A DNA stretch of 64,000 nt from NCBI GenBank assembly GCA_938002255.1, contig CALLAL010000006.1, positions 1-64,000 on the forward strand. Reading direction: 5' to 3'. The notes beneath the pieces are model-generated. The model saw nothing but the letters and a program-made list of their open reading frames with translations, was not told the DNA's origin and did no database searches. Origin of the DNA: an uncultured bacterium (lineage in GTDB: Bacteria > Desulfobacterota > BSN033 > UBA1163). This document shows, in pieces, positions 4,816 to 50,695 of this stretch; the stretch's first letter is position 1; every line of letters begins with the position of its first letter. Made by a program: the position numbers and the translations under genes.

Positions 4816-5345
4816 ATGAAAGGAGCCGTAAAGAGAAGAATGGGGAGGATTTACGGATTGATTCTTACCCTCTTGTTTTTCAACATTTCGGTAGGATTGG
4901 CAGAGGAAGCCGAAAAAAAAGAGGACCCAGCCCTATTGGAAGAGATTACTGTAAGAGACACCCCCTACAGTAATCCAGTGACTCCCATCCCTACGCGTTA
5001 TGGCACCCAGTATCATCGGGTGACCGATGAACAGATCAAAGAGCAGAATGCTTATGATTTCCATTCCACTCTCAGAAATGTGCCAGGGGTTATGTTTCAG
5101 AACAAAAATCTATTTAGAGATCAAACCAGCCACAATCTCTACATTCGTGGCCGGGGGGCCAGCCATCCCAGCGCGGATTTCGCTATTGAATTTGACGGAG
5201 TTCCACGCTATGGAGCAATCTTTGGCCAATTGTTAGGTGACAGTAATGGACATGGTTCGCACCGACATGCCAGTAAGTAATCCCAGTCAATATTGGGAAA
5301 AAATAAACCCGGAAGTGGTTGACCACTATGAAATCGGCTTGACCC
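4816..5345 (+). pseudogene. TonB-dependent receptor, truncated and frameshifted
   Basis: The first 145 codons encode a signal peptide (hydrophobic LILTLLFFNISVGLA), a TonB-box-like segment (EEITVRDT) and the receptor plug domain (RVTDEQIKEQNA, LRNVPGVM, IRGRGA, IEFDGVPRYG). Near 5243 the frame shifts: the second frame from 5246 continues with a segment typical of the distal beta-barrel (NPSQYWEKINPEVVDHYEIGL) and then breaks off. So the plug is joined directly to a late barrel piece: about 400 residues of barrel are missing. AAAGGAGG at 4801-4808 precedes the ATG. The outer-membrane receptor cannot be functional. Confidence 0.8.
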
Positions 5346-5355
5346 ATACCTGCAT

Positions 5356-5460
5356 CTGCCGGATGAGGAAACGATGCGCGCTTTGCTAAAAAGGGCAGGA
5401 TTGTCTATTGGCACGTTCATAGATGAGCCGGGTTTCTATTGCATTATTGCAAAAAAATAG
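5356..5460 (+). pseudogene. 3' fragment of a class I SAM methyltransferase
   Basis: A frame different from the receptor gives LPDEETMRALLKRAGLS and a tail DEPGFYCIIAKK before TAG 5458-5460. This is the usual C-terminal end of small class I methyltransferases (a late helix, then the last beta strands). It is fused directly to the end of the receptor fragment near 5340-5355, so it is a leftover of a separate gene brought in by deletion. Confidence 0.6.
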
Positions 5461-5533
5461 TCACAGTAGAATGTGATAAGACTAACGGTACTCTTCAGCT
5501 TTTATAGCTTTTAACGGTAAAACAACGAAAAAC

Positions 5534-6421
5534 ATGAAAACCTCCTGGAGGACACTTTCTGGAAGCAGGTCGTGCTCATGGATCATCTCGGTTTTGATTC
5601 ATCTGATTCTCTTTTCGATTCCGATAGTCATGGACAGAGAGCCACAAAGTGAGGAAATCGAATTTTTTATATCCATAGACGAGGTTCAGGTTCCACCTGA
5701 GCCGGTGGTAAAACCGATAGTTTTTAAGAAGCTACGGCCTGAGCCTGTCAAAGAAATGGTTCAACCGATCCAGCCTTTCTCCCCCAAGATAGAACTGCCG
5801 AAAATCATCGAACCGGTCAATGAAGTGATGAAAGAATCAGAAGTTATCGAACCGGTCCAGGAAGTTTTTAAAGAACCGGAGTTTATCGAACCCGTTCGAA
5901 AAGTTTTAAAGGAACCAGTGGAACCCGAGGAAAAACCCATCATGACTGAAACAAATAGGCAGCCGGCCACAGAACCCCACCCCTCCCTCTTCGTGCCGAC
6001 TTTGCCGGAGATCCCGGTGATAAGTAGTGGTAAGCCTGCCGAAGGCCAGAGAATCGATACAAAACCGGACACCAAGCAACAATCACTCGTGAGCCATTAT
6101 ACGGTTCGAACTGAAACAGAAACCCCGATCGAAACCAGATTCGGAGCCTCTGTTGCCCCCGCTTTTCTGCACAGGGTCATGCCTATCTATCCTATGATGG
6201 CAAGAAGGCTGGGTATGGAGGGAAAAGTGGTACTAAAATTGACCATTGATGAGAAAGGAGTACTCCGGGAAGTAGAAGTCATTGAAAAGGCAGGCTATGG
6301 ATTTACGGAGGCGGCCGTAGAGGCTGTAAAGAAATCAACCTTTCTTCCTGCAAAAAAAGACGGAAAACCTATTGCTTCCCGGGCACTCCTTCCCATAACG
6401 TTTCAATTAGAGAAGCACTGA
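5534..6421 (+). CDS. tonB: Energy transducer TonB
   Basis: 295 residues. There is an N-terminal signal anchor (IISVLIHLILFSIPIV, about 19-34), a long Pro/Glu/Val-rich periplasmic spacer with three copies of an IEPV-x-EV-x-KEP repeat (about 90-135), and a C-terminal TonB domain (about 205-293) with the typical YPMMARRLGMEGKVVLKLTID and a final LPITFQLE strand. It links proton-motive force, through ExbBD, to outer-membrane receptors. It looks intact, although both neighbouring receptors and the exbB that follows are broken, so it may be idle or serve distant receptors. The ribosome site is poor (AACGAAAAAC). Confidence 0.88.
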   Translation: MKTSWRTLSGSRSCSWIISVLIHLILFSIPIVMDREPQSEEIEFFISIDEVQVPPEPVVKPIVFKKLRPEPVKEMVQPIQPFSPKIELPKIIEPVNEVMKESEVIEPVQEVFKEPEFIEPVRKVLKEPVEPEEKPIMTETNRQPATEPHPSLFVPTLPEIPVISSGKPAEGQRIDTKPDTKQQSLVSHYTVRTETETPIETRFGASVAPAFLHRVMPIYPMMARRLGMEGKVVLKLTIDEKGVLREVEVIEKAGYGFTEAAVEAVKKSTFLPAKKDGKPIASRALLPITFQLEKH

Positions 6422-17096: not shown

Positions 17097-17882
17097 TTAA
17101 CGAGGATGGGCAAAGGTGCGTGGACGATTCACGCCTGGGGATTCCACCTCAGGTTTGATTTCGCCGCGGATTCCGATTCGCACCTTTTTCAATGGGATCT
17201 GTTTCCCTGAAGCTTCAATGGCATCCTCGGTCACCTTAACAAGGCCGAAACAACAAGGTACTTCCATAAAAGGCACGGTGACGCTCTTGATTGAATTTGC
17301 CTTAAAGATGGCGGTCAGTTTTTCTCGATAGAGCTGAATATCATCCAGTTTCGGACAGCCCACCACGACAGCCTTGCCCCTAAGAAAATCCTGATGGAAG
17401 TCGGGGTAAGCAAACGGAACGCAGTCAGCGGCGATCAATAAATCTGCCTCCTGAAAATAAGGGGCTTCAACTGGCACCAATTTCAGCTGAACGGGCCATT
17501 GCGTGAGTTGAGAAACCGATGATCCCTTTGGGCCGGAGTTCACACTGGGTTGGGGAGCCTGGAACTGTAGCACTCTTGATGAAGGACATCCTGTAAATTC
17601 AGGTTGGGGCTTCGGCTGAAAAATTGGAATAGCCTCTTTCTGTTTGTGGAGATGGATTTCCACTGCCTTTTCATCGAATTCTTCCGCCTCTCTTTCGATA
17701 ATCCGAATGGCGTCTTCAGGGCAATGTCCGAGACAGGCTCCTAAGCCATCACAGAATTTGTCAGTGATCAGTTTTGCCTTTCCGTTAACAATTTGCAAAG
17801 CTCCTTCAGCGCAGTTTGGAATACAGAGGCCGCACCCCGTACATTTTTCTTCGTCAATTTGAACGATCTTTCGTATTGCCAT
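17097..17882 (-). CDS. Ferredoxin-domain protein of the Hcp-associated type
   Basis: 261 residues. N-terminal 4Fe-4S domain: CTGCGLCIPNC (cluster 1) and CDGLGACLGHCPEDAI (cluster 2, with altered spacing). After a Pro/Gln-rich linker (about 95-120), the C-terminal half has conserved cysteines in ADCVPFAYPDFH, VVGCPKLDD and VPCCFGL, suggesting another metal site. Proteins with this order are widespread in anaerobes and are often encoded with hybrid cluster protein. It is probably a cytoplasmic electron carrier in nitric-oxide or nitrosative stress response. An FNR/CRP-like palindrome lies 62 bases upstream of the start. Confidence 0.8.
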   Translation of the reverse strand: MAIRKIVQIDEEKCTGCGLCIPNCAEGALQIVNGKAKLITDKFCDGLGACLGHCPEDAIRIIEREAEEFDEKAVEIHLHKQKEAIPIFQPKPQPEFTGCPSSRVLQFQAPQPSVNSGPKGSSVSQLTQWPVQLKLVPVEAPYFQEADLLIAADCVPFAYPDFHQDFLRGKAVVVGCPKLDDIQLYREKLTAIFKANSIKSVTVPFMEVPCCFGLVKVTEDAIEASGKQIPLKKVRIGIRGEIKPEVESPGVNRPRTFAHPR

Positions 17883-17943
17883 GGTCCCATCCTCCTTTAG
17901 GTTAATTTTAATTAAACGATAATAGGTTTTAAAACCTTTTGCA

Positions 17944-17957
17944 TTGATTTAAGTCAA
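17944..17957 (-). promoter_or_regulatory. FNR/CRP-family operator (copy 1)
   Basis: TTGATTTAAGTCAA on the plus strand (TTGACTTAAATCAA read toward the gene), one mismatch from the perfect palindrome at 46663 and 50682. A TATTAT at 17919-17924 could be the -10 element, 19 bases beyond the box. A second palindrome AGGTTTTAAAACCT lies at 17924-17937. Confidence 0.65.
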
Positions 17958-44204: not shown

Positions 44205-45110
44205 TTACCACCAGCGCCAGAGTGCGATGATGAAAGTGATCAGGAACACAAAGATCAGGTTCACATAAGCCATGAAATAAAACACCTTCTCAGGTAATGT
44301 TTTCTTCTTTTTTGTGGCCACTGATATCAAATCTCCCACAAGGGGCATTTTTATAATTTTTTCTTCTCCATGAGGAGCCGTGCCGAGGGCTTCTGTTAAA
44401 TCATTGCCTGCCAGATGTTTTCTGACGTGATTTCCCTCCACCCACAGTCTGCTGGAACTGACGTCATAAATTTTCCCTTTATAAGCAATGTAGGCTGGTT
44501 TTTTGTCCGTTCCATCGAAACGTGATAATTCGTCTGCCGTATATTCTTTCTTTTTCTCAAGAGGAAGCTGAACTATTTTTTTCCTCAATTTAGGCCCGAT
44601 GACGAACGTGACGATGGAAGCGGAGCTTACCATGATGAAAAACAGGATCAGTTTAATGCCCAAAAGCATTCCAAACCTGGTCGTATAAAATGCTTCCCAG
44701 GCCGGAATCCGTGCAATGGTGAGGGGAATACCTGTTGCGGTAAGCAGGAAGATCCCAAGCCAGCCCAGGATCAATTCCCCTTTCGGCAATCCCTTTGCGG
44801 CATAGGCGGGTTTGAGGAGGATGTGAACATAGAGAATGGTTCCGAACCAGGCGATGGCGGTCAGGAGGTGCAAATAACCGATGATCAGCCTGATCCCCTT
44901 TTGAAAGGGGCGGAGAGGGCGGTATTGCCCCTTTGCCTGCAAGTCTTCTCTAAAGCCTTCTCCCTCTTTGGTTAATTCTCCCCCTGTTGGATCGACGTGG
45001 CAATGCAGACAGTCGAAGGTCGTCTGCTCGGCATATTCGGGGGTTCCGTGGGAGAAAAAGGGTAAGAATAAAAGGTACCCCCCTAAAAGAAATAGGCCTA
45101 TGATCTTCAT
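44205..45110 (-). CDS. Membrane protein fusing a c-haem site, CopD-like helices and a cytochrome b5-like domain
   Basis: About 301 residues. N-terminal signal anchor, then one haem c motif FDCLHCHVDP (about 36-40). A membrane part of four helices (IIGYLHLLTAIAWFGTILYVHILL, ILGWLGIFLLTATGIPL, MLLGIKLILFFIMVSS) with CopD-like His residues. Then a cytochrome b5-like domain (about 190-265) beginning YTADELSRFDGTDKKPAYIAYKGKIYDVS with haem-ligand His in GNHVRKHLAG and APHGEE. A last helix follows. Encoded 92 bases after the octahaem gene; it is the likely membrane electron partner. ATG 45110 chosen; the codon at 45116 is TTG. Confidence 0.78.
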   Translation of the reverse strand: MKIIGLFLLGGYLLFLPFFSHGTPEYAEQTTFDCLHCHVDPTGGELTKEGEGFREDLQAKGQYRPLRPFQKGIRLIIGYLHLLTAIAWFGTILYVHILLKPAYAAKGLPKGELILGWLGIFLLTATGIPLTIARIPAWEAFYTTRFGMLLGIKLILFFIMVSSASIVTFVIGPKLRKKIVQLPLEKKKEYTADELSRFDGTDKKPAYIAYKGKIYDVSSSRLWVEGNHVRKHLAGNDLTEALGTAPHGEEKIIKMPLVGDLISVATKKKKTLPEKVFYFMAYVNLIFVFLITFIIALWRWW

Positions 45111-45164
45111 GGGCAATTCATTTTACTAGAATAAAAGGGTGAACGCAAGAGGAGAAATGAGGGG

Positions 45165-45201: not shown

Positions 45202-46449
45202 TCATTTTTTCGTTTTAGCACGCAGATCCGCAGCCTTCTCTTTAATCTCTGTCAGGCTCTGTTGCATTTTACTCCAACCGTACCACAAGGCATAGTCGGG
45301 ATTGGCGTGAAATGTTCCCTGGAAGGTTCTCATTCGATGTTCGAGGAACATGACAAAGAGTTTTTGCTCGATGGTGGTCGGAGCATCGTGAAACGTAAGA
45401 AGGTCAGGGAATGGATAAGCATAATTTTTAGGTTTGGGAAGGATGCCATCCTTGTAGAGATCAGCCACAATGCGAATGGCTTCCGCCATCACACGGTCCG
45501 CATCCTTGATGATTTGATCCCCTTTTTCCAGTTCAGCCTTTGCAAAATTGATGGAATGACATTGGTTGCATGCTTTCAGCATTTTGTCACGTTCTTTTTG
45601 CCAGCTTTCTTGAGTCAATCGGGCCAAGTCAGCGGCTTTTACCGCTTCAAGTCGTCCCGTGGGTTTTCCATCTGGATCGAGCACACCGAGTCCTTGAAGG
45701 ATCGTTGCTCGGTCCGCTGCCCATTGTTTATCCTCCGGCATGGGCAGTCGAACCGCCAGAAAACCCCATGCCGTTCTCACTTCATGACTTCCTTCTTGCA
45801 TATGACAGGTCTGACAGGTGGGTGCCGATGCAGTGGCTGGGAGCGTCTTATTCTGTTTCAAAAGAAAACGAACTCCATGCTTTGAGCCTGAGTACATCTC
45901 CCATTGAGGATGATCAAACCCCATATGGCAAGTCTGACAAGCCTGGGGCTGTTTTGCTTCTACCACGGAAAAGGTGTGTCGCGTATGGCAGGCATCGCAG
46001 GAAGCGAGGCCAAATCCGGCTCCGCTTTTTTTCAACTCCTTTATTTCCGCTTCGGTTTTCATTCCAATCTTATGGCATCCCCCACACCCCTTCATTCCTT
46101 CCATTAAGGACATGGGCTGCCAGTGGGCCGTGGGCATGGCTTTCATCGCCGTCCATGCATGAGCATGTTTTCCAGACTTAAACTCCTTCACCCGTTTGTC
46201 ATGACAGGTCGCGCAGGTGTCCGGTGTGGGGATCTTGGCCTTTGCAACATCTTGGCGGGATTTGTGCTCAGAGCCGTGGCATTCTGCGCATCCGATCTTA
46301 TTTTTACTATGTTTGCTCAGTTGCCAATCGTTTACAATTCCAGGGGTTACTCTCTTATGGCATTCCACACAAATTTGTGCATTTGTTGTCGGGGATAACA
46401 AAAAGGTCCCCAAAAAAATGAAAAGGGCAAGGCGTAATCTGTTTCTCAT
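45202..46449 (-). CDS. Octahaem c-type cytochrome, hydroxylamine oxidoreductase family
   Basis: 415 residues: signal peptide (about 1-24), then eight CxxCH motifs (CVECH, CAECH, CATCH, CGGCH, CDACH, CQTCH, CQTCH, CNQCH). The C-terminal HAO-family word HRMRTFQGTFHANPDYALWYGWSKM is conserved. Members act on nitrogen compounds: hydroxylamine oxidation in nitrifiers, and reduction of hydroxylamine, nitrite or NO in anaerobes. I cannot tell whether the catalytic Tyr crosslink is made. No C-terminal anchor; periplasmic. AAAGGAGG precedes ATG 46449. Promoter and operator at 46.64-46.68 kb. Confidence 0.88.
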   Translation of the reverse strand: MRNRLRLALFIFLGTFLLSPTTNAQICVECHKRVTPGIVNDWQLSKHSKNKIGCAECHGSEHKSRQDVAKAKIPTPDTCATCHDKRVKEFKSGKHAHAWTAMKAMPTAHWQPMSLMEGMKGCGGCHKIGMKTEAEIKELKKSGAGFGLASCDACHTRHTFSVVEAKQPQACQTCHMGFDHPQWEMYSGSKHGVRFLLKQNKTLPATASAPTCQTCHMQEGSHEVRTAWGFLAVRLPMPEDKQWAADRATILQGLGVLDPDGKPTGRLEAVKAADLARLTQESWQKERDKMLKACNQCHSINFAKAELEKGDQIIKDADRVMAEAIRIVADLYKDGILPKPKNYAYPFPDLLTFHDAPTTIEQKLFVMFLEHRMRTFQGTFHANPDYALWYGWSKMQQSLTEIKEKAADLRAKTKK

Positions 46450-46634
46450 GTTTTACGTTCCTCCTTTCCGACAATTTGTAACAAAATAGATTTTCTGAAA
46501 TTTTTTGTCTAAAAGGTTTTCATACCTCCTTTCGGATAGGTTGAATAAGCGTTTAACATTATTTATAATGAAATTGTAAATTAAATACAATGCTTATTCT
46601 CAAGCCTTTGGTTTCATACAAAATAACTCAACTC

Positions 46635-46640
46635 ATTATA
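46635..46640 (-). promoter_or_regulatory. -10 element of the octahaem operon
   Basis: TATAAT on the minus strand, 22 bases beyond the TTGACTTAAGTCAA box, so the box is centred near -41.5 as for class II FNR/CRP activation. Start of transcription is predicted near 46628, giving a leader of about 180 bases. Confidence 0.7.
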
Positions 46641-46662
46641 GCCATCCTTCAAATATAAACTT

Positions 46663-46676
46663 TTGACTTAAGTCAA
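46663..46676. promoter_or_regulatory. FNR/CRP-family operator (copy 2), divergent
   Basis: TTGACTTAAGTCAA, part of an 18-base perfect palindrome (46661-46678). It lies between the octahaem gene (minus) and the duplicated-domain gene (plus). A consensus -10 lies toward the former (46635-46640) and a weaker TATGAA toward the latter (46700-46705). One box could drive both. Confidence 0.75.
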
Positions 46677-46748
46677 AAAAATCTAATCAGGGTAGGCTTT
46701 ATGAAGTAAGGGAGAATAGAGATTCAGTTCAAAGGAGGTATGAAGAAT

Positions 46749-47192
46749 ATGACCCACGAATATTCTGGAAAGTATGCCTCAAAACATCCGGCAGGAACCA
46801 AACCGAACGAAGAGATTGCGAGAATGATTCAGGAAAAATCCCCCGGCCGTGAGCTCGCCTGTGGAATGGCTGAAAAGATTTCGAAAGAGCTGAAGGTCAG
46901 CCTCTCAGAGGTTGGAAAGACTGCTGATTTACTGGGAGTAAAGATCAAAAAATGTCAACTTGGCCTCTTTGGTTGGGGTAATCAACCGAACCACGGCAAA
47001 GACATCCATCCGGCCGGGTCTGTCCCGATGGAGATCGAAAGGGCTCTTCAAGAAGTCGTTGAAGGGGGAAGGGTTACATGCGCTTCGATCTGGGCGATTG
47101 CCGATCGATTGGGTATAGAGCGGAAAGCCATCTCAACCGCCTGCGAAACCTTAGGGCTCAAGGTCCGCGCCTGTCAGCTTGGCACCTTCTAA
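46749..47192 (+). CDS. Two-repeat helical protein, possible DNA-binding regulator
   Basis: 147 residues made of two tandem copies of a domain of about 65 residues: HPAGTKPNEEIARMIQEK...VKIKKCQLGLFG (about 15-80) and HPAGSVPMEIERALQEV...LKVRACQLGTF (about 85-147). Each copy has a helix-turn-helix-like middle (LKVSLSEVGKTADLLG; LGIERKAISTACETLG) and ends in CQLG. Function unknown; a transcription factor is plausible but unproven. ATG 46749 is used, as AAGGAGGT (46732-46739) abuts the earlier ATG 46740. Probably under the 46663 box. Confidence 0.68.
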   Translation: MTHEYSGKYASKHPAGTKPNEEIARMIQEKSPGRELACGMAEKISKELKVSLSEVGKTADLLGVKIKKCQLGLFGWGNQPNHGKDIHPAGSVPMEIERALQEVVEGGRVTCASIWAIADRLGIERKAISTACETLGLKVRACQLGTF

Positions 47193-47644: not shown

Positions 47645-48466
47645 TCACCTAACAAAAGCAATCTTCTCCGCACATTCCTTCAAGAGATGATAGGCGGAGC
47701 CTCCCTGCCTCAGAAGCTTTAGCATCCGATCAGAGTTCAGGATCCGAATGCCTGCCATTACCCTAACGCCCTTCGTGAAAAAGGCATCAGGGAGAAGGCT
47801 GGCGGTGGGACCTATGATCGCTGTGCGTTTTTCGTTGGAGATCCATGACAGAACTGAATCAATGGTATGATTGACGATGGCGGTTCCAGTGATGATCACC
47901 ACCTGTGAATTCTCAATGGCTGTTTTCAATTCGGAATCTGGTTTAAAATATTTGATCTCCTCTGGTCTCAGGGCTGAAGGATTCTTCTCGATAATGTAAA
48001 ACGGGTTTCCCATGGCTTTCAGCCTCCTGATGTAGGGACCAAAAGCCCCGATCAATGAGACCGTTTCACGAGGCTGGATGTGAAGCAAGTCGAAACCATC
48101 CTTATCTACAACTAGTTGATAGTCTTTTGGGTTTTCCGATTCGATGATCCATTGAGAAAGTCCATTGAGGGTTGCAATGCCAATGGCGCTTTTCAATACA
48201 TTAGGGTCAAGTGAGTAAGGAACGATTTCAGAAGCAGATTTTCCGTCCAGATTTCCAGCCGACGGCATTCTGGCCGCAGAGGTGGGGCAACAGACCGCCT
48301 CGGGAACTTCTCCAATGGGCGTAAAGGCGCAACCGGCATGGCCGCTTGAGAGCTTTACGCCCGTGAAGAAGACTCCGATCACCAGATCTCCCACCCGAAC
48401 TTCTTCGAGTGGGGCAGGAGACTTTTCCTTTACCATCGCGATGGTATCTGCGATCACCGTTGACAT
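47645..48466 (-). CDS. DUF364/DUF4213 family protein (putative metal chelation)
   Basis: 273 residues with the family order: N-terminal DUF4213 domain (EEVRVGDLVIGVFFTGVKLS, VCCPTSAARMP, AIGIATLNGLSQWII) and the C-terminal Rossmann-like DUF364 domain (VSLIGAFGPYIRRL, VVIITGTAIVNHTIDSVL, AIIGPTASLLPDAFFTKGV). Such proteins are associated with metal transport or cofactor loci in anaerobes. It lies 31 bases after norB on the same strand, so it may be part of the nor operon. Confidence 0.83.
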   Translation of the reverse strand: MSTVIADTIAMVKEKSPAPLEEVRVGDLVIGVFFTGVKLSSGHAGCAFTPIGEVPEAVCCPTSAARMPSAGNLDGKSASEIVPYSLDPNVLKSAIGIATLNGLSQWIIESENPKDYQLVVDKDGFDLLHIQPRETVSLIGAFGPYIRRLKAMGNPFYIIEKNPSALRPEEIKYFKPDSELKTAIENSQVVIITGTAIVNHTIDSVLSWISNEKRTAIIGPTASLLPDAFFTKGVRVMAGIRILNSDRMLKLLRQGGSAYHLLKECAEKIAFVR

Positions 48467-48497: not shown

Positions 48498-49817
48498 TCA
48501 ACTGCTTTCCTTTGTGGCCAGACCTATTACATCAAGGACGTACACAAGGGTTCCAATCAGGAAGGCAATGCCTGTATAGAACACCCCAATGATCCAGGGC
48601 CTCATAAATCCCTGAACTGTTAGAAAATCTATCCCCAACCCTCTCTGAAAATAAGATTGAATCAGCCCCGCTGCTCCGAAGGCAAGTCCCATGACCATCA
48701 TGGAAGTCGTTGTGATCCAGAAGGCCCAGAACCCCTTTTTCTGATTAAATTGTTCCAATCCTTTCAATCTGGGAAGGGCAAAATAGACGATGGTTAGAAC
48801 GAGCATGGCATAGGCCCCAAAAAACGCCATATGACCATGAGAGGTTGTGACCTGTGTTCCATGAGTCCAGCGGTTCACCTGGGGAAGGGTATGAATCACA
48901 CCCCAGACACCTGCACCGATAAAATGGAAGATGGCACAACCAACCGCCCAGTAAAGGGCCAGGCGGTTTTTGACCTCAAGCTTGCGATGTCGTACGTGGT
49001 TGAGGGTATCAAAGACCATGAAAAGGATTGGAAGAGGTTCCATGGCACTGAAGATTCCTCCCCACCAGAGCCAGTATTCTGGAGTCCCGATCCAGTAATA
49101 ATGATGACCTGTTCCAATGATTCCTGTAATCAGGACAAGCCCAACCTCGATATAAAGCCATTTCTCTATGACCTGTCGTTCCACACCGGTCAACTTGAGC
49201 AATACAAAGGCCATAATGGCAGCGGCGATCAATTCAAAGGCTCCTTCTACCCAGAGATGAACGACCCACCACCAGTAATAGTAGTCGAGGGTGAGATTCT
49301 TAAAAAAAGGAATTCCGAACAGCCACATCACCGCAAGCATGACAATGCCACCCAAGAGCATGCCCTGGATAGCAGTCCACTTTTTGGTCCGGATCATAGT
49401 CATGAAGATATTGAAGATGAAGATAAGGGCAATCACAACAATGGCCCATTTTAATTCGACGGGTAATTCGAGAAGAGGCCTTCCAGCTGTCCAACCAAAA
49501 AGAAATCCAATCACAGCGACCAAACCGCCTATGAGAAGAAGCCAGAACTGTAGATTGGCAAGCTTTGTGCTGTAGAGTTCTGTTCCGGATTCCTCCGGGA
49601 CGATATAGTAAGCCCCTCCCATGAATCCAAAGAGTAGCCAGACCACTAAAAGATTGGTATGGATGGCTCTTGCGGTATTGAAGGGAAGGAGGCCAATAAG
49701 AGGATCGGGCCAGACATATTTGGCTGCCAGGAGAAGTCCCAAGATCACCTGGAGACCAAAGAAAACCGCAGAGATGACAAAGTATTTAATCGCTACTTTT
49801 TGTGATTCGTAAGTCAT
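48498..49817 (-). CDS. norB: Nitric oxide reductase catalytic subunit NorB
   Basis: 439 residues, twelve helices. Haem and Fe-B ligands are in place: His in RAIHTNLLV and in SHGHMAFFGAYA (haem b and b3), VVHLWVEGAFELI and GTGHHYYW for Fe-B, with the Fe-B-associated Glu in HLWVEG and the second Glu in FSAMEPLPI. It reduces two NO to N2O at the haem-iron site in the inner membrane. AAAGGAGG precedes ATG 49817. Encoded after norC (85-base gap), as usual; norD and norQ are absent. Confidence 0.92.
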   Translation of the reverse strand: MTYESQKVAIKYFVISAVFFGLQVILGLLLAAKYVWPDPLIGLLPFNTARAIHTNLLVVWLLFGFMGGAYYIVPEESGTELYSTKLANLQFWLLLIGGLVAVIGFLFGWTAGRPLLELPVELKWAIVVIALIFIFNIFMTMIRTKKWTAIQGMLLGGIVMLAVMWLFGIPFFKNLTLDYYYWWWVVHLWVEGAFELIAAAIMAFVLLKLTGVERQVIEKWLYIEVGLVLITGIIGTGHHYYWIGTPEYWLWWGGIFSAMEPLPILFMVFDTLNHVRHRKLEVKNRLALYWAVGCAIFHFIGAGVWGVIHTLPQVNRWTHGTQVTTSHGHMAFFGAYAMLVLTIVYFALPRLKGLEQFNQKKGFWAFWITTTSMMVMGLAFGAAGLIQSYFQRGLGIDFLTVQGFMRPWIIGVFYTGIAFLIGTLVYVLDVIGLATKESS

Positions 49818-49901: not shown

Positions 49902-50597
49902 TTATTTGAGCCCTGCCAGAAAACTCACCAAGGCCTGCACCTCATCTTCGGAAAGCTGAGGGTAGGCTGGCATCTGAGTTACGGGGTTAATCGATTTCGG
50001 GTTTTTAATTAACTGGGCAAGCCATGAAGTATCCCTTTTTGCGCCGATATGAGAAAGGTCAGGGCCGATGACTCCTCCCTGTCCTCCGATCCGATGGCAG
50101 AGATCGCACCGATTCTGATTGTAAACATTTTTCCCTTTTAAAATCTGGGCCGTTTCCTCGAGAGGGGCTCCAGTGATCTTAGCTACTGTGATTGGTTTGG
50201 GTGGCCATTGGTTGGTATCGATAGCATCCACCCATTTCAAAAAAGCAATCAACTTATTGATTTCGTCGTCAGTAAGTTTCTGATTGGGCATCTTTCGTCG
50301 ATGAGGGTCAGGGGAATCCGGGTTTTTTAAAAATTGTTTTAGCCAGGTGTCTCCTCTGGAGGAATAAACCTTAGTCATATCTGGAGCATAATAGGCTCCG
50401 ATCCCAAGGATCGTGTGGCAGTCATTGCAATTATATTTGTGCCAGACCCTCTTTCCCATAACGACCTCATCGGTTAGTTTGTCTGTATTCGTGCGTTTCG
50501 GAATGGTCGAATGGGTGTCGATGGTGAGCCAGATGAAGACGGCCGAACAGATGACCGTCCCCCAGATGAAGAAATTTCTCGCTGCTTTCTTCTCCAT
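49902..50597 (-). CDS. norC: NorC-like dihaem cytochrome
   Basis: 231 residues. An N-terminal anchor (FFIWGTVICSAVFIWLTI), then a NorC domain with haem motif YNCNDCHTILGIGAYYAPDM (about 55-59), then a second cytochrome c domain with RCDLCHRIGGQGGVIGPDL. Ordinary NorC has about 150 residues and one haem; the second domain is fused at the C-terminus and probably takes electrons from a separate donor. It delivers electrons to NorB. AAAAGGAGG precedes ATG 50597. An FNR/CRP-type box lies 85 bases upstream. Confidence 0.85.
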   Translation of the reverse strand: MEKKAARNFFIWGTVICSAVFIWLTIDTHSTIPKRTNTDKLTDEVVMGKRVWHKYNCNDCHTILGIGAYYAPDMTKVYSSRGDTWLKQFLKNPDSPDPHRRKMPNQKLTDDEINKLIAFLKWVDAIDTNQWPPKPITVAKITGAPLEETAQILKGKNVYNQNRCDLCHRIGGQGGVIGPDLSHIGAKRDTSWLAQLIKNPKSINPVTQMPAYPQLSEDEVQALVSFLAGLK

Positions 50598-50681
50598 AAA
50601 GTCCTCCTTTTCAGTTCTGTTTCACAAAGGAATGGATTGATTCTTTTAAAAAAAAGATCTCTCTGAAAATGGCAAAAATCA

Positions 50682-50695
50682 TTGACTTAAGTCAA
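50682..50695 (-). promoter_or_regulatory. FNR/CRP-family operator (copy 3), upstream of norCB
   Basis: Perfect TTGACTTAAGTCAA, identical to the copy at 46663. The -10 element at the expected distance is not clear, so the promoter may start elsewhere, but the position upstream of norC fits regulation by an NO- or oxygen-responsive FNR-family protein. Confidence 0.65.

Follow-up and report, generated by a model that had tools for sequence, protein, structure and literature searches.

A predicted HcpR-type activator site before an octahaem cytochrome operon of the hydroxylamine oxidoreductase family in a Desulfobacterota genome without hcp

Genes and operators at the locus

The window, i.e. the whole stretch of 64,000 nucleotides that was analysed, belongs to contig C6 (81.8 kb) of the 3.27-Mb genome (98% complete) of an uncultured sediment bacterium of the Desulfobacterota. 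Its minus strand encodes a canonical cytochrome-c nitric oxide reductase (norCB), a putative metal-chelation protein, an octahaem cytochrome c of the hydroxylamine oxidoreductase (HAO) family, and a membrane protein that is the second gene product of the octahaem operon; a divergent gene for a duplicated-domain protein lies upstream of the octahaem gene, and a ferredoxin-like gene is located elsewhere in the window (Table 1). The gene of the membrane protein stays beside the octahaem gene in relatives. In relatives, the DUF4213/DUF364 gene likewise retains a place between norB and the octahaem gene, which suggests a link with nitric oxide reductase or haem assembly.

Table 1. Coordinates of genes, operators and promoter hexamers in the window
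Feature	Position	Strand	Remark
4Fe-4S ferredoxin-like protein	17097..17882	-	FrdX-like position in the regulon; FrdX identity only putative
TATCGT at the -10 spacing of the ferredoxin-like gene	17916..17921	-	conserved spacing of 32
One-mismatch box TTGATTTAAGTCAA	17944..17957	.	precedes the ferredoxin-like gene
Membrane protein with CxxCH, CopD and cytochrome-b5 domains	44205..45116	-	second gene of the octahaem operon
Octahaem cytochrome c, HAO family, eight CxxCH	45202..46449	-	lacks an equivalent of Tyr467 (Leu388)
TATAAT, predicted -10 element of the octahaem promoter	46635..46640	-	centre 32 bases from box centre; class II, -41.5
Predicted HcpR-type operator, 18-base perfect palindrome	46661..46678	.	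core TTGACTTAAGTCAA at 46663-46676
TATGAA, originally proposed plus-strand -10 element	46700..46705	+	at 33 instead of the conserved spacing of 32
Duplicated-domain protein, conserved start MTHEY...	46749..47192	+	divergent neighbour of the octahaem operon
DUF4213/DUF364 putative metal-chelation protein	47645..48466	-	third gene, after norCB
NorB, cytochrome-c-type nitric oxide reductase	48498..49817	-	E 1e-124 to NorB of 3o0r
NorC, nitric oxide reductase subunit C	49902..50597	-	extra haem c domain
GATCTT at the -10 spacing of norC	50654..50659	-	weak; several relatives have GATTTT there
Second perfect box	50682..50695	.	precedes norC

The original prediction, made from the letters of the window, had described a Crp/Fnr-type box inside an 18-base palindrome between the octahaem gene and its divergent neighbour, and this description is exact, with all coordinates correct. 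It had also proposed a genome-wide search for the 14-base core, which yields only two perfect copies (0.018 expected from base composition), both intergenic: the one at 46663 and a second at 50682. The latter, as well as the near copy at 17944, had been overlooked. There are three copies with a TA centre in the window, all of them intergenic, and every remaining TTGA-N6-TCAA match of the window lies inside a long open frame. Of 210 palindromes generated by permuting the half-site, TTGACTTAAGTCAA alone is present in the 81.8-kb contig and the other 209 are absent; TTGACTTAAGTCAA has two perfect copies and four within one mismatch, versus one for the next-best permuted palindrome. Matches to the 14-mer with up to three mismatches are expected about three times per window, as would suit a chance match or a repeat without a role in transcription, but the exact copies are far above expectation and intergenic, and boxes recur before the same genes across the genus with a fixed spacing to the -10 element, so that this explanation can practically be dismissed. 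The palindrome is instead predicted to be a real HcpR-type activator site with an unusual target.

Promoter geometry

As originally noted, the minus-strand hexamer TATAAT (46640-46635) is separated from the box by 22 bases, which is the conserved spacing. The distance of 32 bases between the centres of the box and the -10 element places the box at -41.5, assuming that the -10 element spans -12 to -7, in agreement with the class II position originally assigned to the site before the octahaem operon; transcription is predicted to start near 46628. Of the seven boxed promoters of this genome, six have a TATnnT hexamer at a distance of exactly 32 bases from the centre of the box (p ~6e-12 against a background of 1%, the rate over other offsets), namely those of the octahaem gene (TATAAT) and the genes for YgbA (TATTTT), a small Zn protein (TATTCT), an HD protein (TATGGT), the ferredoxin-like protein (TATCGT) and NnrS (TATGAT), the seventh being norC (GATCTT). 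Among 45 promoters of relatives, TAnnnT is found at this distance in 29, the next-best offset accounting for 7. The geometry is that of a class II activator, with the site at -41.5 that characterizes class II Crp/Fnr-dependent promoters in 6/7 and 29/45 cases, respectively.

On the plus strand, TATGAA (46700-46705) does lie one base further from the box, with 23 bases between them, and the hexamer at 32 on this side is TTATGA. The original prediction that the one site could also switch on the duplicated-domain gene is not supported. A single box serving both directions would be consistent with the presence of TATGAA at 33, with a distance from box to start (72-81 bases) in the usual range, and with retention of the box-gene pair in G004, which has lost nearly all of the octahaem gene; however, there is no -10 element at spacing 32 in G000 or G004, TAnnnT occurs at 33 in only one of the 45 promoters of relatives, and the orthologues in G009 (73% identical) and G008 (62% identical) lie elsewhere and have no box. 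Shared control of the duplicated-domain gene is rather doubtful because of these unboxed orthologues and the off-by-one spacing, although the pair in G004 keeps it conceivable.

Targets of the box in this genome and in relatives

Boxes are found before seven genes or units: norC, the octahaem gene, the ferredoxin-like gene, ygbA, a Zn-ribbon/CcoN-like unit, nnrS and the HD gene. The pattern TTGAYNTANRTCAA has seven copies in this genome and 3-10 in each genome of the genus, compared with 0-1 when its letters are reversed. Repeatedly boxed across the genus are the genes of NorC, the ferredoxin-like protein, YgbA, a 48-aa four-cysteine protein, the HD protein and NnrS.

The seventh boxed gene encodes a DUF1858-NnrS protein of 581 aa (L022:3143-4963, C21:93142; box TTGACCCAAGTCAA, TATGAT at 32), the orthologues of which in G002, G003, G007 and G009 are boxed as well. 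A boxed unit that is conserved across the genus (L020:5059-5205 and 5259-5672, C6:67058-67671) encodes the 48-aa four-cysteine protein together with a CcoN-like membrane protein of 137 aa. A 71-aa protein (MAEY...; L140, L146, L160, L161, L171) with no Pfam match is encoded approximately 110-150 bases after a TTGATTTAAGTCAA box in five species of this genus. A near-match, TTGACTTAAGTCCA (L024:4029-4042, C24:20028), is intergenic and has TAAGAT at 32, with no clear target gene found. The box at C33:18533 was rejected as a regulon member, having neither a -10 element at 32 nor a close target.

The octahaem gene is linked to the box in several ways. In G003 and G008 it is the fourth gene of a boxed norCB operon (box-norC-norB-DUF364-octahaem); in G015 a box directly precedes it; and in this genome and G004 DUF364 is separated from the octahaem gene by a second box together with the duplicated-domain gene. 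Thus, with these different layouts, the link to the box has evidently been kept by different arrangements, although several relatives possess the octahaem gene without any box. In G004 (L077:3025-3153) the octahaem gene is deleted except for its last 43 codons, and the box and the CopD/cytochrome-b5 gene remain.

The predicted leader of the octahaem transcript is unusually long (~179 nt, versus 10-50 nt for most other targets), and its fold (z = -1.6) gives no convincing RNA structure. Two strong Shine-Dalgarno sequences are present in this predicted leader (46453-46628); a very short frame (ATG AAA ACC TTT TAG), possibly a relic or a leader peptide, follows the upstream of the two. This length, together with the single operon-like array of norCB, DUF364 and octahaem genes in G003 and G008, could indicate that the octahaem gene is mainly read through from the norC promoter, the box at 46663 being secondary or meant for the divergent gene. 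This is quite unlikely in the present genome, in which an opposing gene occupies part of the 1.2 kb separating DUF364 from the octahaem gene and a perfect TATAAT stands at the conserved spacing before the latter.

No hcp gene is found in the genome by the Hcp model, two Prismane-family matches being CODH-like by eye rather than Hcp, and nrfA was not found either. A box-linked octahaem gene is present in 6 of 13 genomes lacking hcp, versus 1 of 10 others (Fisher p = 0.09, two-sided; scored by eye in non-independent genomes), which is suggestive only of an association between lack of hcp and box linkage of the octahaem gene.

The candidate regulator

A search of the whole genome for genes of the FNR/CRP family, another check proposed at the outset, found exactly one protein above the Pfam cut-off for the Crp-type helix-turn-helix model, encoded at C6:64425-65108. 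The original statement that no such regulator is encoded in the window is correct to the letter; the sole Crp/Fnr gene over threshold, however, starts only 425 bases beyond the window's end. Weak HTH_Crp_2 matches on contigs C19 and C35 are under the cut-off, and the C19 frame appears GntR-like by eye. The protein at C6:64425 has the architecture of the Crp/Fnr family, with a cNMP-binding domain (PF00027, 2e-24) and an HTH_Crp_2 domain (PF13545, 1e-17). Autoregulation was rejected, there being no TTG-N8-CAA in the region upstream of its gene.

The regulator has a single cysteine in 228 aa and therefore no FNR-type cluster. Its recognition helix (ISETLSR) presents Ser-Glu-Arg at positions 180/181/185 in CRP numbering, compared to Val-Glu-Arg in FNR and Arg-Glu-Arg in CRP, and thus conforms to HcpR1 proteins, with Ser or Pro at 180, Glu at 181 and Arg at 185 (PMC1274295). 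The HcpR proteins of delta-proteobacteria other than Desulfovibrio, which have Ser or Pro at 180, are associated with the motif wyTTGACnnnnGTCAArw, and two cyanobacteria have close HcpR orthologues with the same kind of site (PMC1274295); boxes of this form precede the targets in the present genome. In a tree of 132 proteins, including named Geobacter, Geomonas and cyanobacterial proteins and leaving out the sequences of PMC1274295 themselves, the regulator falls into a clade of 117 (support 0.96) that holds all 22 hcp-adjacent regulators, all with Ser, Pro or Gly at 180 and then Glu-Arg, and that excludes FNR, CRP and DNR. The regulators closest to it are from metagenome-assembled genomes labelled Syntrophaceae and Deltaproteobacteria RBG_16_49_23. 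Despite the absence of hcp from this genome, the box is tied to HcpR by a set of 42 hcp genes taken from relatives and from HcpR loci, 30 of which have TTGAY-N4-RTCAA within 350 bases.

The original prediction had left the binder open among FNR, DNR and HcpR proteins. By its cysteine count, helix, position in the tree and the boxes of hcp genes, the regulator is of the HcpR (HcpR1) type as judged from its sequence, rather than FNR or DNR. If the box were bound by an oxygen-sensing FNR or a denitrification-type DNR, the octahaem operon would be an anaerobic-respiration gene set; the half-sites are similar, and among solved structures that of DNR comes closest to the regulator (E 2e-29). This assignment is nevertheless very unlikely: the one cysteine contrasts with the four that FNR requires for its oxygen-labile 4Fe-4S cluster, FNR and DNR both lie outside the regulator's clade, the helix residues speak against them, DNR prefers TTGATnnnnATCAA (PMC1274295), and the genome has no other over-threshold Crp/Fnr protein.

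The octahaem cytochrome

The octahaem protein matches structures of HAO, best of all 6h5l ('similar to hydroxylamine oxidoreductase'), which we take to be Kuenenia HAOr. Tyr467, the cross-linking residue of the Nitrosomonas enzyme (1fgj), aligns with Leu388, so that the protein, with eight CxxCH motifs and no equivalent of this tyrosine, groups with tyrosine-less HAO proteins such as Kuenenia HAOr (kustc0458) and Campylobacterota Hao. The cross-link tyrosine is also lacking in 6h5l, but the protein of this genome has Leu rather than Trp at that position, is shorter, and has a CopD/cytochrome b5 partner. Absence of the tyrosine in the HAO family is held to favour reduction (PMC8940962), although there is disagreement over what the tyrosine-less protein of Kuenenia does (PMC11897245). 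With its HAO tyrosine missing, the octahaem enzyme is probably reductive, and may reduce NO, nitrite or hydroxylamine.

Comparison with known regulons

Switches of this kind have been known since 2004-2005 (Rodionov et al., PMC545781, PMC1274295). The HcpR (HcpR1) regulon of Geobacter, Desulfuromonas, Desulfotalea and cyanobacteria (PMC545781, PMC1274295) has the same box, TTGACnnnnGTCAA, a regulator without FNR cysteines and with a Ser/Pro-Glu-Arg helix, and targets among NO genes (norB in Synechocystis, for which an HcpR regulon of norB only was reported, PMC1274295) and ferredoxin- and cytochrome-type genes. In contrast to it, the present genome lacks hcp, and among the targets are an HAO-family octahaem cytochrome, ygbA, nnrS, the HD gene and a small Zn-ribbon protein. 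The DNR regulon of Pseudomonas and denitrifying beta-proteobacteria similarly has an NO-responsive Crp/Fnr activator of nor genes and an FNR-like box, but that box is CTTGATnnnnATCAAG. The NsrR regulon of enterobacteria shares ygbA as an NO-stress target (PMC1274295), but NsrR belongs to a different family, acts as a repressor and has a different box, whereas the ygbA box of this genome is of the HcpR type and in an activator position. In the open-access literature, the passages found in the one paper that contains both 'HcpR' and 'hydroxylamine oxidoreductase' do not link the two; as far as this literature shows, what is new is an HAO-type octahaem gene among HcpR-type targets, in a genome without hcp.

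Proposed mechanism and significance

Computation establishes the box, its rarity, its spacing, its conserved targets and the identity of the only candidate regulator; building on these, we propose that the palindrome is, very probably, the operator at which the HcpR1-type regulator of this genome exerts class II activation of the octahaem operon within a nitrosative-stress regulon. The activating signal would most likely be NO, bound to the haem of the regulator, as we infer from characterised HcpR proteins of P. gingivalis and D. desulfuricans; haem binding or an NO response has been demonstrated or put forward for other members of the HcpR family (PMC12750200, PMC5701242). Its dimer would bind the box and, as a class II activator, recruit RNA polymerase to TATAAT, switching on the octahaem cytochrome and its membrane partner; the regulator would likewise switch on norCB, the ferredoxin-like gene, ygbA, the small Zn-ribbon/CcoN-like unit and the genes of NnrS and the HD protein, the whole set constituting the nitrosative-stress regulon. 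Counted against this explanation are the long octahaem leader, the fact that a box directly before the octahaem gene is not general, and the absence of hcp.

We tentatively suggest, as a possibility less likely than its alternative, that in this lineage of Desulfobacterota a tyrosine-less octahaem HAO-type reductase and NorCB came to replace Hcp within the HcpR response. If so, a periplasmic multihaem enzyme would remove NO or hydroxylamine under a regulator named for hcp, and the move of its gene from fourth place in the norCB operon to a boxed promoter of its own would be a recent rewiring, seen here. Anoxic settings harbour abundant tyrosine-less octahaem cytochromes of the HAO family, whose function in the cell is unsettled; from HcpR-type control shared with nitric oxide reductase, YgbA and NnrS, one would predict that such an enzyme helps to detoxify NO or hydroxylamine. 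The box with TATnnT at 32 also provides a precise search rule for NO-stress genes in uncultured Desulfobacterota, one that reaches several genes without known function.
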